From the NCBI RefSeq assembly GCF_030063285.1, contig NZ_JASISU010000004.1, forward strand, positions 186,001-250,000: 64,000 nt of DNA, in the 5' to 3' direction. Shown here piece by piece: positions 52,933 to 60,479 of the stretch. Every line of letters starts with the position of its first letter. Position 1 is the first letter of the stretch. A program made the translations under genes and the position numbers. Origin of the DNA: Pseudarthrobacter sp. PS3-L1. Lineage in GTDB: Bacteria; Actinomycetota; Actinomycetes; Actinomycetales; Micrococcaceae. The notes beneath the pieces were generated by a model. It was not told the origin of the DNA. It saw nothing but the letters and a program-made list of their open reading frames with translations, and did not search any database.

Positions 52933-54555
<1,623 letters not shown>

Positions 54556-54683: not shown

Positions 54684-56744
54684 ATGTCGAGAGCGCTTTC
54701 AGCGCCCCCCAGGCCATCCCAGGCTGCTCCCAGTCCCCGGAAGTCGACGTTCCGCCCAGAGATCCAGGGGCTGCGTTCACTCGCAGTGCTCATGGTTGTT
54801 ACCTACCATGTCTGGTTCGGCCGAGTCTCGGGCGGTGTGGACGTTTTCCTCCTCATTTCTGCCTTCCTGATGACGCTGCAGTTCGTGTCCAAGTTCGACC
54901 AAAAACGTCCGATGGGACTTTTTCGGCACTGGCTGCACCTGTTCCGCCGTCTTTTGCCAGCTGCTGTCACAGTCATCGTTGCGGTCGTCGTGGCGAGCTA
55001 TCTCTTTCTCCCGCGGACCCGATGGCTGGACATCATTGACCAGGGTTGGGCGTCGCTGTTCTATATACAGAACCGCTTGTTACAGGCCGAAGCCGTTGAC
55101 TACTATGCGATGGACCACAGCCTCGCGAGCCCACTCCAGCATTTCTGGTCGCTGTCCATTCAAGGGCAGGTCTTCATCCTGTGGCCCATTATTTTCGCCG
55201 CCTGCGCATGGGTGTCCCGCCGCTATGTGCTGTACTACCGGCGCCTGCTGACGTTCGTTTTTGGCGCGGTCTTTGTTGTGTCTTTGGCCTACTCCATATT
55301 TTTCACGGTTGTTAACCAGTCCCAGGCCTATTTTGATACCGGGGCCCGGCTGTGGGAATTTGCCCTGGGTACGATGGTGGCGCTTTTTCTGCCGGGCCTG
55401 AAGCTCTCCCAAAATGTCAGGATCGCCCTGGGATGGTTCGGCGTGGTGGCAATGCTCAGTTGCGGCATTCTCCTGAACGTCGAGGCTGCCTTTCCGGGGA
55501 TCGCGGCACTGTGGCCCACACTTGCTGCCGCTGCTGTGATCGCTGCAGGGCAGACGGGAAGCCGGTTCGGGGTTGACCGGATCCTCAGTTCGCGATTCCT
55601 AGTTCGTCTGGGGGACAATTCATATGCCCTGTATCTCTGGCACTGGCCCCTGTTGGTCATTGGCCTGTCCGTCAGCGGAAAAGACCATGCTGGTTGGCTG
55701 TCCGGATCCGTCATCATCGGGACTGCACTGCTGTTGGCTTTCCTGACCACGCGTTTCATCGAAAAACCCTGGCGGGAATGGAAATGGCCTGAGGTCAGAC
55801 GTCGGCGCGCAGCCATTGCCATAGTCGCTGCACTGAGTGTGGCAATCATTCCCCTCTCCGGGTGGCAGCTGCAGGTCGAATCAGAGCGTCGTGAGGCGCA
55901 GTCGCAGGCGTGGGTCAACAACCCGGGAGCGCGCGTCCTCGACCCGACTTTCCTCGGCGATGAACCAGCAGATGAGGCCACACTGCTGCCCGCTGCAGCA
56001 GATTTATCCAAGGACTGGGTAACGCTGGACGGCGCATGTACTGACGAGTTGGTTCCGGCGTCGAAAGCCCTTCGTGGAGCCTGTTCGGAGCAGCGCCCCT
56101 CGGGCATCCCAACCCGCAGTGTGCTGGTCTTGGGAGACAGCCACGCCCAGCAGTGGTCCGGTGCACTGAAATCGGTAGCCAAAGCCAACAACTGGCTGTT
56201 GTATTCCATTCTCAAAGGTGGCTGTAAAGTGACGCCCGAGGGGATGGCATCGAACGCTGAGTGCGAGGAGTTCAACGCGGAGGTTCGCGAGGAAGTGACC
56301 CGTCAACGCCCTGACGCGATTGTTGCCATCGGAACTGCTGCGGTTCCTTCTGGTCCTGGAGAGGAACTCACTCCCGGATTTCGCTTGCAGGTCGGTTCTT
56401 GGCTGGACAGTGACTTTGATGTTGTCGCTCTGCGCGACAACCCGCGTTTCAGCTTCAATATGGCCGAGTGTGTAGTCCGCCAGGGGCCCGAATCGTCCTC
56501 CTGTCGTCCGCCCGTGGAAGATAACCTTCGGGCGGACAGTCCTTTCGGCCCCATGGCTGGGGAAGAGTTGCCAGGCCTGCATCTTGTGGACATGACGGAC
56601 AGACTCTGCACGGACGGGGTCTGTCCCGGCGTCATTGGCAATGTTTTTGTTTACCTGGATGACAACCATTTGAGTGCCACGTACGCCGCAAGCATGGCCG
56701 AAGAACTTGGCCGGCGAATCATCGCGTCCACAGGGTGGCAATGA
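54684..56744 (+). CDS. Membrane acyltransferase fused to SGNH domain (copy 1)
   Basis: An OafA-type protein, 686 residues. The N-terminal acyltransferase-3 domain (~25-380) has about ten helices and FRPEIQGLRSLAVLMVVTYH with the conserved Arg and His. After a linker, an extracytoplasmic SGNH hydrolase-like domain has LGDSHAQQW (Ser486) and a C-terminal DDNH (to His662). Such proteins O-acylate cell-wall or exported glycans. A second copy follows with ATGA overlap. An AGGAAAG site precedes; GTG 54681 is an alternative start. The acyl donor and acceptor are unknown. Confidence 0.85.
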   Translation: MSRALSAPPRPSQAAPSPRKSTFRPEIQGLRSLAVLMVVTYHVWFGRVSGGVDVFLLISAFLMTLQFVSKFDQKRPMGLFRHWLHLFRRLLPAAVTVIVAVVVASYLFLPRTRWLDIIDQGWASLFYIQNRLLQAEAVDYYAMDHSLASPLQHFWSLSIQGQVFILWPIIFAACAWVSRRYVLYYRRLLTFVFGAVFVVSLAYSIFFTVVNQSQAYFDTGARLWEFALGTMVALFLPGLKLSQNVRIALGWFGVVAMLSCGILLNVEAAFPGIAALWPTLAAAAVIAAGQTGSRFGVDRILSSRFLVRLGDNSYALYLWHWPLLVIGLSVSGKDHAGWLSGSVIIGTALLLAFLTTRFIEKPWREWKWPEVRRRRAAIAIVAALSVAIIPLSGWQLQVESERREAQSQAWVNNPGARVLDPTFLGDEPADEATLLPAAADLSKDWVTLDGACTDELVPASKALRGACSEQRPSGIPTRSVLVLGDSHAQQWSGALKSVAKANNWLLYSILKGGCKVTPEGMASNAECEEFNAEVREEVTRQRPDAIVAIGTAAVPSGPGEELTPGFRLQVGSWLDSDFDVVALRDNPRFSFNMAECVVRQGPESSSCRPPVEDNLRADSPFGPMAGEELPGLHLVDMTDRLCTDGVCPGVIGNVFVYLDDNHLSATYAASMAEELGRRIIASTGWQ

Positions 56745-58798
56745 ACATCAATGCCGTGACGCGGAACGCAAATGTGGCACGTGGGGGCTTTCGTCCGGAG
56801 CTCCAGGGCCTGCGGGCGCTGGCCGTTCTGCTGGTTGTTAGCTATCACGTCTGGTTGGGTCGCGTTTCTGGCGGAGTTGATGTATTCCTCCTGATTTCCG
56901 CGTTCCTGATGACGCTGTCCTTCGTTCGCAGAGTCAATTCAGGAGGAAGCCTCAACCTTTTCAGGCATTGGCTGCACGTCTTCAAGCGGCTGCTTCCAGC
57001 GGCAGTGGTGGTAATCCTTTCTGTGCTGGCAGGAACGGCAGTTGTACTCCAGCCCAGCCGGTGGCAAGCAATTCTGGACCAGGCGTGGGCAACCCTGTTC
57101 TACGTCCAGAACTGGCTCCTGGCCGCGACAGCGGTTGACTATTACGCTCAGGACCATGCCCGGGCAAGCCCACTCCAGCACTTCTGGTCACTGTCCATCC
57201 AAGGGCAGGTCTTCATTCTCTGGCCCATTATTTTTGTCGCCGCAGCATATGCGCTGAAAGCACTGCGGAAGCGGAACTGGGTTCCGGAGCAGTTCGGATA
57301 CAGCGGCTTGTTGGCAGTCATCTTCGGATCCATTTTTGCTTCGTCACTGGCTTTTTCCATCCAGCAGACGTCAACCAACCAATCTTTTGCCTACTTCGAC
57401 ACTCGCACCCGCCTTTGGGAGTTCGCTTTGGGAACCCTCCTGGCACTGGCGGTCCCGCACCTCAATCCAGGCAAGGCCGTGAGGGTTTTTCTCGGCTGGA
57501 TTGGCCTGGCAGCCATCGTGTCCTGTGGCCTGGTCCTGAGCGTTGACAGCGCATTTCCGGGCTTCATCGCCCTGTGGCCAACACTTGCGGCTGCGGCAGT
57601 CATCATTGCCGGACAGTCGGGTAGCCGTGTGGGTGTGGATCGGCTCCTGACGTGGAAACCCCTGATGAGGTTGGGTGATGTCTCCTACGCCCTCTATCTA
57701 TGGCATTGGCCGATTCTCGTGTTGTGGCTGGCCTGGACTGGCCTTCGCTCACCCACCCTCGTTCAGGGGTTGTTTTTAGTGGGTATTGCCCTGTCTCTCA
57801 GTTTCCTTACCGTCCGCTTTATCGAGAAACCGCTGGGCGCCTGGCACTGGCCGCAGCAGCGGACCCGGCGAAGCGCCGTCGTCGTGCTTGCTTGTGGAGC
57901 CCTGCTGGCTGGTCCCGTCGCAGTCTGGCAGAGCAGCCTCGTGGCTGAGGAGCGGGCTGTTGCGGCACAGCCCAGCGACCTTATCCCTGGTGCGGCGGCT
58001 ATCGGCCCCAACAGCACCGCTATCGAGGTCCCCGAGGCGCGGCTGGTGCCAGCGCCGGCTGCGCTCGAGAATGAATGGTTTTTCCTGGATCAGCAATGCA
58101 GTGATGAGGCGGTTCCGGTGGATGATCTCCTGAAAGATTGCCGCCAGACCAGCCAGGCGGAGCACGTAGCGAAGCGGATTGTTGTCCTGGGGGATTCGCA
58201 CGCACAGCAGTTCATGGCTGCACTGGAGCCCATTGCCCAAGAACGCGGCTGGGAGGTTATTTCGTTGCTTCGCGGCAGTTGCCGGTTTGGTGCCCAGTCG
58301 GAATCGCGGGATCAGGACTGCAACGCCTTCAACCGTGCAAGTTCCAACTACGTCCTGGACCAGCGTCCGGATGCCGTGTTCACGGTTGCGACCATGACGC
58401 ACGCAGAAGAGCCATACGAAACTGCGGTGGATGGCTATCTCGAAGGAGTCCGGCCCTTCTCCGACGCTGGTATCGATGTGGTGGGTATCCGGGACAATCC
58501 ACGCTTCGATTTCAGCATGGCTGAATGCGTTTTGGACCAAGGCCCGGAAGCAGAGGCATGCAACCCGTCCATCGAGGAATCGCTCGCGGCGGTCTCGCCT
58601 CTGGAGGAGTTCCACGACACCCTTGAGAACCTGTCACTGATGGATATGAGTGATTTTTTCTGCGCGGAGGGTGTCTGTCCTGCGGTCGTGGGAAATATTT
58701 TTGTCTACAAGGATGACAGCCATTTGACCAAGAGCTATGTCGAAAGCATGGTTCCCATGTTCCGGGAGCGGCTCCTCGCGGCCACGGGCTGGCAGTAG
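56741..58798 (+). CDS. Membrane acyltransferase fused to SGNH domain (copy 2)
   Basis: A tandem paralogue of the preceding gene, 685 residues and the same architecture: FRPELQGLRALAVLLVVSYH, about ten helices, then LGDSHAQQF (Ser486) and DDSH near residue 661. Long stretches are nearly identical to copy 1, such as SPLQHFWSLSIQGQVFILWP. The ATG overlaps the stop of copy 1, so both are made together and may act as a pair on different positions of one glycan. The C-terminal halves differ more than the membrane halves. Confidence 0.85.
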   Translation: MNINAVTRNANVARGGFRPELQGLRALAVLLVVSYHVWLGRVSGGVDVFLLISAFLMTLSFVRRVNSGGSLNLFRHWLHVFKRLLPAAVVVILSVLAGTAVVLQPSRWQAILDQAWATLFYVQNWLLAATAVDYYAQDHARASPLQHFWSLSIQGQVFILWPIIFVAAAYALKALRKRNWVPEQFGYSGLLAVIFGSIFASSLAFSIQQTSTNQSFAYFDTRTRLWEFALGTLLALAVPHLNPGKAVRVFLGWIGLAAIVSCGLVLSVDSAFPGFIALWPTLAAAAVIIAGQSGSRVGVDRLLTWKPLMRLGDVSYALYLWHWPILVLWLAWTGLRSPTLVQGLFLVGIALSLSFLTVRFIEKPLGAWHWPQQRTRRSAVVVLACGALLAGPVAVWQSSLVAEERAVAAQPSDLIPGAAAIGPNSTAIEVPEARLVPAPAALENEWFFLDQQCSDEAVPVDDLLKDCRQTSQAEHVAKRIVVLGDSHAQQFMAALEPIAQERGWEVISLLRGSCRFGAQSESRDQDCNAFNRASSNYVLDQRPDAVFTVATMTHAEEPYETAVDGYLEGVRPFSDAGIDVVGIRDNPRFDFSMAECVLDQGPEAEACNPSIEESLAAVSPLEEFHDTLENLSLMDMSDFFCAEGVCPAVVGNIFVYKDDSHLTKSYVESMVPMFRERLLAATGWQ

Positions 58799-58940: not shown

Positions 58941-60479
<1,539 letters not shown>

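Follow-up and report, generated by a model that had tools for sequence, protein, structure and literature searches.

We analysed a pair of adjacent genes, here named A and B, in a stretch of 64,000 nucleotides from Pseudarthrobacter sp. PS3-L1 (the window; contig NZ_JASISU010000004.1, positions 186,001 to 250,000 of the forward strand). Each of them encodes a predicted membrane acyltransferase in which an AT3 membrane half and an SGNH half are fused in one chain. Comparison with relatives strongly supports an asymmetry between the two genes: A keeps its AT3 half while the module that follows it, made of the eleventh long helix (TM11), the linker and the SGNH half, is replaced between relatives, whereas B is conserved throughout. 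The features of the pair, in window coordinates, are the following.

54684..56744, + strand: gene A, predicted AT3-SGNH membrane acyltransferase, 686 amino acids from ATG (open reading frame, Pfam, structure model)
54744..55808, + strand: conserved part of A, AT3 membrane half, residues 21-375, with Arg31 and His42 (PF01757)
55800..56741, + strand: exchanged module of A, TM11 (residues 373-408), SGNH extension/linker and SGNH half (breakpoints in relatives)
56133..56144, + strand: SGNH block I of A, Gly484-Asp-Ser486-His487 (residue conservation)
56658..56669, + strand: SGNH block V of A, Asp659..His662 (44 of 44 A rows)
56741..56744, + strand: ATGA overlap of the A stop and the B start, four bases common to both open reading frames
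56741..58798, + strand: gene B, predicted AT3-SGNH membrane acyltransferase, 685 amino acids from ATG, both halves conserved (open reading frame, Pfam, structure model)
56783..57871, + strand: AT3 membrane half of B, residues 15-377 (PF01757)
57863..58795, + strand: TM11, linker and SGNH half of B, conserved among relatives (clustering, structure model)

The open reading frames bear out what an earlier sequence-only reading of the window had described, two adjacent OafA-type fusions of 686 and 685 amino acids with an ATGA overlap. Both proteins carry PF01757 (AT3) and PF19040 (SGNH fused to AT3) in one chain, with all four matches well above the cut-offs. Aligned over the whole length with BLASTP, A and B share 339 of 675 residues (50%). 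The same reading had found the membrane halves alike and the SGNH halves divergent, and the identities agree with it, with 219/355 residues (61.7%) in AT3, 28/88 (31.8%) in the linker and 89/220 (40.5%) in SGNH.

Asymmetry between A and B among relatives

For the comparison, 76 relative loci (designated by L numbers) were examined, all of them fetched by similarity to A. Their 106 family open reading frames and the two window proteins make up 108 rows, and these gave 44 A and 63 B rows once the third paralogue of the same genome (L001) was excluded from the counts. One A and one B are present at 29 loci, a set that does not include L078, with two A-like copies. Over the 406 pairs of these 29 loci, the median identity was 74.4% for the AT3 half of A, 74.1% for the AT3 half of B and 79.2% for the SGNH half of B, whereas it was only 36.8% for the SGNH half of A. 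Clustering at 60% identity placed the 44 A rows in a single AT3 cluster but in 12 SGNH clusters, while 61 of the 63 B rows fell in one SGNH cluster.

The asymmetry also appears among rows that are close in their membrane halves. When pairs with AT3 halves at least 80% identical were considered, the SGNH halves were at most 50% identical in 28 of 130 A pairs and in none of 785 B pairs, the lowest value in the latter being 68%. Along the 28 discordant A pairs the change point falls at a median residue of 379, where TM11 starts, with a range of 371-422, and six disjoint swap pairs could be drawn from the A rows. The two halves had different nearest partners in 13 of the 44 A rows, compared with 3 of the 63 B rows. 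A of the window has its nearest AT3 partner in L020 (80%, with the SGNH half at 32%) and its nearest SGNH partner in L006 (62%), and in a further protein set L121, L122 and L125 are nearest to L020/L022 in AT3 (88-90%) and to L010 in SGNH (62-64%).

The pattern was followed to the DNA level. Between L012 and L036, identity is 83-94% in the AT3 part of A, about 46-58% in the module, mostly 81-94% in the opposite-strand gene that follows and about 82-97% in B, so that the drop starts at around residue 380 of A and stops at the next gene. The profiles of L024/L032, L006/L042 and L031/L034 have the same shape. As a separate observation, the AT3 half of the window's B (56783-57871) falls basally among the B rows, on a long branch, reaches at most 73% identity to any relative and is more diverged than the other B copies.

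Recombination and point mutation as possible sources of the variation

Two explanations of the divergence in A were weighed, namely recombination and a fast accumulation of point mutations in the SGNH half, in which selection would be relaxed or diversifying and recombination would play no part. The sharp breakpoint at one place and the recovery of identity at the next gene already argue against the latter, and so do the phylogenetic data. The sequence-only reading had proposed separate phylogenies of the two halves, and the tree of the AT3 half of A does mix the two main SGNH types: L006 (type 1) groups with L042 (type 2) with support 100/96, and L036 (type 2) groups with L012 and L028 (type 1) with support 100/100. 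The approximately unbiased (AU) test, in which the groups were chosen after the data were seen, a choice about which the test carries a warning, rejected SGNH type 1 as one clade on the AT3 data (p 2e-8) and, on the SGNH data, rejected both all type 1 and type 2 A rows as one group (p 1.6e-4) and L036 with L012/L028 (p 1.8e-72). These rejections tell against point mutation, as does the fact that the SGNH half of L036 is nearest to that of L022 (74%, with AT3 halves only 81% alike) and not to that of its AT3 sister L012 (90% in AT3 and 35% in SGNH).

Synonymous sites jump as well, which also speaks against point mutation: between L012 and L036 the synonymous divergence (dS) rises from 0.33 in the AT3 half to 1.24 in the SGNH half, while in B it stays at 0.24 in both halves. 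Inside a shared module, the ratio of nonsynonymous to synonymous divergence (dN/dS) of the SGNH half was 0.05-0.12 in 16 close same-module pairs, hand-picked from 71 listed pairs. This again disfavours point mutation and indicates that the modules are under purifying selection between exchanges.

Several observations weigh against the exchange of modules, or limit how far it can be extended. Over the whole set of 71 A pairs the median dN/dS was 0.38 in SGNH and 0.17 in AT3, as expected from point mutation, although the high value is explained by the mixing of modules in that set. For L006/L042, with dS as high as 0.85 and 1.08, both halves are close to saturation at synonymous sites, and the DNA evidence is accordingly weaker than for L012/L036. 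When identities were correlated with those of guaB, the conserved gene on the right flank (L013 and L034, with no full guaB, left out), the Spearman coefficient was lowest for the SGNH half of A, 0.21, against 0.53 for its AT3 half and 0.84 and 0.70 for the AT3 and SGNH halves of B; a weak correlation of the A module is nevertheless found, indicating that it is partly inherited too. Fetching by similarity to A enriches for genomes that bear A, so the frequencies given here are not population frequencies, and with one genome per species in the sample the exchange is seen between species only. Finally, no donor outside the A lineage, taken as an SGNH half at least 60% like an A module on an AT3 half less than 70% like that of A, was found among 56 further proteins (from L082-L141). 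L124, L135 and L136 had been considered as chimeras with another AT3 backbone, and full-length alignment ruled them out.

Taken with these points, the trees, the AU tests and the DNA identity point to recombination over fast point mutation in A, and point mutation alone is scarcely credible. Given that no donor from another lineage was found among the 56 further proteins, homologous recombination among A alleles would be the simplest route for the exchange of modules.

Catalytic residues and predicted structures

The sequence-only reading had named inactivating changes in one copy across relatives as what would speak against two enzymes, and such changes were not found. Arg31 and His42 of AT3, spaced by ten residues in the first transmembrane helix, are present in 44 of 44 A rows and 63 of 63 B rows, and all 44 A rows also keep Ser486, Asp659 and His662 of SGNH (A numbering), as do 62-63 of the 63 B rows, in which an alignment gap at the last block accounts for the single missing cell. 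In block I of A, Ser and His are found in all 44 rows, with the position of Asp485 variable. In the mixed alignment of 56 rows, the linker and SGNH half contain eight invariant cysteines. Since the catalytic residues are retained in nearly all relatives, neither copy appears to be decaying; an inactive copy was thus ruled out, and both A and B look catalytically active.

AlphaFold2 models of the two proteins were built from alignments of 56 rows (40 of the 44 A and 16 of the 63 B) and 49 rows (41 of the 63 B and 8 of the 44 A), and reached pLDDT values of 87.3 for A and 86.6 for B. TM11 joins the two halves in both models (residues 373-408 in A and 375-408 in B). In the Protein Data Bank (PDB), the A model matches best with 6se1 (E 2.1e-6), a structure of the periplasmic SGNH domain from Salmonella OafB; in a phmmer search of the PDB at a threshold of 0.001, no sequence relatives of the A SGNH half were found.

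Proposed roles of a constant and a variable acyltransferase

We consider it probable that A and B are active O-acyltransferases, B being constant on a common glycan and A having a variable specificity through an exchangeable acceptor module. In each protein, an acyl group from cytoplasmic acyl-CoA would cross to the outer face by way of the membrane half, and the Ser-Asp-His triad of the SGNH half would then transfer it onto a hydroxyl group of an envelope glycan. We infer this activity, the acyl group (acetyl or succinyl) and the acceptor glycan of both proteins. The duplication that gave A and B would be older than the Arthrobacter/Paenarthrobacter/Pseudarthrobacter radiation. Since then B would have remained a constant enzyme, most likely acting on an envelope glycan common to the group, and A would have served as an acyl-delivery base, with its AT3 half kept and the TM11, linker and SGNH module replaced between lineages. 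Conserved AT3 sequence could act as the left recombination arm, and whichever gene follows A, be it B or the intervening gene, as the right one. Since the exchanged unit comprises TM11, the extension and the SGNH half, the acceptor choice of A would change between lineages with acyl delivery unchanged, the acceptor of B remaining fixed, and A probably modifies a lineage-specific glycan or site.

The role of the module in setting the acceptor choice of A is suggested by analogy with OafA/OafB, in which, as a passage of PMC7448272 states, the SGNH domain makes the final transfer and a structured extension restricts the acceptor. These Salmonella O-antigen acetyltransferases share with A and B the two-domain build, the TM11 linker and the Ser/Asp/His triad, and the A model matches 6se1 best. 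A and B differ from them in belonging to a Gram-positive host without lipopolysaccharide, in being arranged in tandem and in the exchange of TM11-SGNH at one copy. Two active acyltransferases that differ in acceptor preference are well supported indirectly by the intact catalytic residues, the alike AT3 halves and the differing SGNH halves. The sequence-only reading overlooked that the SGNH half is an exchanged module in A and conserved in B.

Two AT3-SGNH paralogues acting on two sites of one glycan are described for OatA/OatB of Lactobacillus plantarum in a passage of PMC9558356. OatA and OatB are peptidoglycan enzymes, whereas the best fold match of A is the O-antigen enzyme OafB. To our knowledge, no constant/variable asymmetry has been reported for OatA/OatB. 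In the HsdS subunits of type I restriction systems, target-recognition domains are exchanged on a constant core, in likeness to A; the chemistry is different, and the exchange in A is seen only between species. No inversion or silent-cassette machinery was seen at A/B, where no systematic search for it was made. By extension, the A slot could be an allelic specificity system, with a constant base and interchangeable acceptor modules under selection by phages or other surface agents and a coupled B that keeps a fixed house modification; we put this forward as a tentative proposal. If true, the A slot would be the surface-acylation counterpart of the exchange of target domains in HsdS. Nothing on the exchange of SGNH modules was found in the open-licence PMC literature, which does not prove its absence.

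The surface decorations that AT3-SGNH enzymes make in bacteria influence recognition by phages and by the immune system, and the part that sets the acceptor has been probed in few proteins. The A series is a ready-made domain swap, with a shared AT3 half, differences only past one junction and a constant paralogue adjoining as control, and lets the role of the SGNH module alone in choosing the acylated sugar be asked directly. The series further suggests that, within a common soil genus, a modification of a wall glycan differs from one close relative to the next.

Similarity to SucT

The best full-length NCBIfam model for both proteins is SucT (NF058601), which makes it the closest curated model and one concerned with acylation of actinobacterial envelope glycans. 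SucT (Rv1565c) is a mycobacterial enzyme that succinylates the arabinan of arabinogalactan and lipoarabinomannan, and Micrococcus luteus has a succinylated lipomannan. An alternative to the constant and variable pair is therefore that A and B are SucT-like succinyltransferases of lipomannan or galactan, each specific for a position on one glycan, in line with the two sites on one glycan of the sequence-only reading. In its favour, the genome has a galactan cluster of GlfT2 type that includes ABC export genes and a third AT3-SGNH gene. However, the scores of 385 bits for A and 382 bits for B are far under the equivalog cut-off of 1275 bits; matches of this kind are present in 234 of 245 genomes sampled from the bacterial family, often several in each, and none of the 245 reaches the cut-off. 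SucT may rank first just because no other curated full-length model from actinobacteria is nearer. The passages returned by a literature search on succinylated lipomannan of Micrococcus contained no direct statement of it. We consider this alternative unlikely. With an enzyme family as common as this, the basic finding is an ordinary pair of envelope glycan acyltransferases.

Organization of the locus and the question of a heterodimer

The pair lies between two conserved flanking genes.

52945..54555, + strand: groEL, conserved left flank
58968..60479, + strand: guaB (IMP dehydrogenase), conserved right flank

At 56 loci both flanking genes, groEL and guaB, are in view: A and B occur together at 27 of these, A alone at 8, B alone at 20 and two A-like copies at one. 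Besides the pair of the window, 29 adjacent pairs were found: the start codon overlaps the stop in 21, the genes are within 15 bases in 2 and at 128 bases in 1, and the remaining 5 are split by an opposite-strand open reading frame of 317-322 amino acids, which encodes a DUF389 protein in L012, the sole one scanned. Translational coupling, as the sequence-only reading had it, is thus common in relatives.

That reading had also offered a functional heterodimer, and an obligate or functional one, with coupling for stoichiometric assembly, would agree with the ATGA overlap here and with the start/stop overlaps elsewhere. Against it, each protein has a complete catalytic set, loci with A only or B only are common (counted at the locus, with copies elsewhere in those genomes possible) and in some pairs a gene on the reverse strand stands between A and B, which disfavours the obligate form in particular, and we regard a heterodimer as very unlikely. 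Coupling is usual, yet A or B can be found without the other as neighbour.

The stretch after groEL varies between relatives (groEL-A or groEL-B intervals of L006, L012, L014, L020, L050, L059 and others), and for this reason the groEL-guaB interval may be an insertion hotspot. LuxR-type regulators, an FAD oxidoreductase, a DUF389 protein and an ATP-dependent DNA ligase were found among 10 proteins scanned from these intervals. The two tandem A-like copies of L078 (L078:5716-9982, Arthrobacter horti), also between groEL and guaB, have SGNH halves that are mutually nearest (58%).

Phage homologues and a third gene in the same genome

A full-length AT3-SGNH homologue is encoded in Arthrobacter phage Peas (NC_048096.1, 22904-24976; host Arthrobacter globiformis), with 28.7% identity over 97% of B; it is annotated as an O-antigen acetylase in one record and as a thioesterase in the other. 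Gordonia phage BritBrat and Salmonella phages carry further homologues, which in the Salmonella phages go by the name gtrC or O-antigen acetylase. Two unannotated entries labelled 'Bacteriophage sp.' from human faeces, MT836327.1 and MT835499.1, also contain AT3-SGNH genes of full length, at about 38-40% identity to A and B; these may be cargo of phages or belong to stray bacterial contigs. According to a review (PMC9558356), acetylation of the O-antigen gives Salmonella protection from a phage. This protection, together with the homologues carried by phages, makes it reasonable by analogy that phages possibly drive the variation of A. Literature searches on Arthrobacter phage receptors and acyltransferases, on actinobacterial phage resistance and acyltransferases and on O-acetyl groups of Arthrobacter wall teichoic acid gave nothing useful.

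Elsewhere on the same contig (L142:6978-12758; C13 about 431978-437758), a GlfT2-type galactofuranosyltransferase gene and an ABC-2 exporter with its ATPase are followed by the third AT3-SGNH gene. The cluster is a lead for the acceptor of A and B, and it suggests that a galactan is exported, and has a dedicated acyltransferase, in a genome that does not belong to the mycolic-acid bacteria. An AT3-only gene lies 3 kb beyond the cluster.

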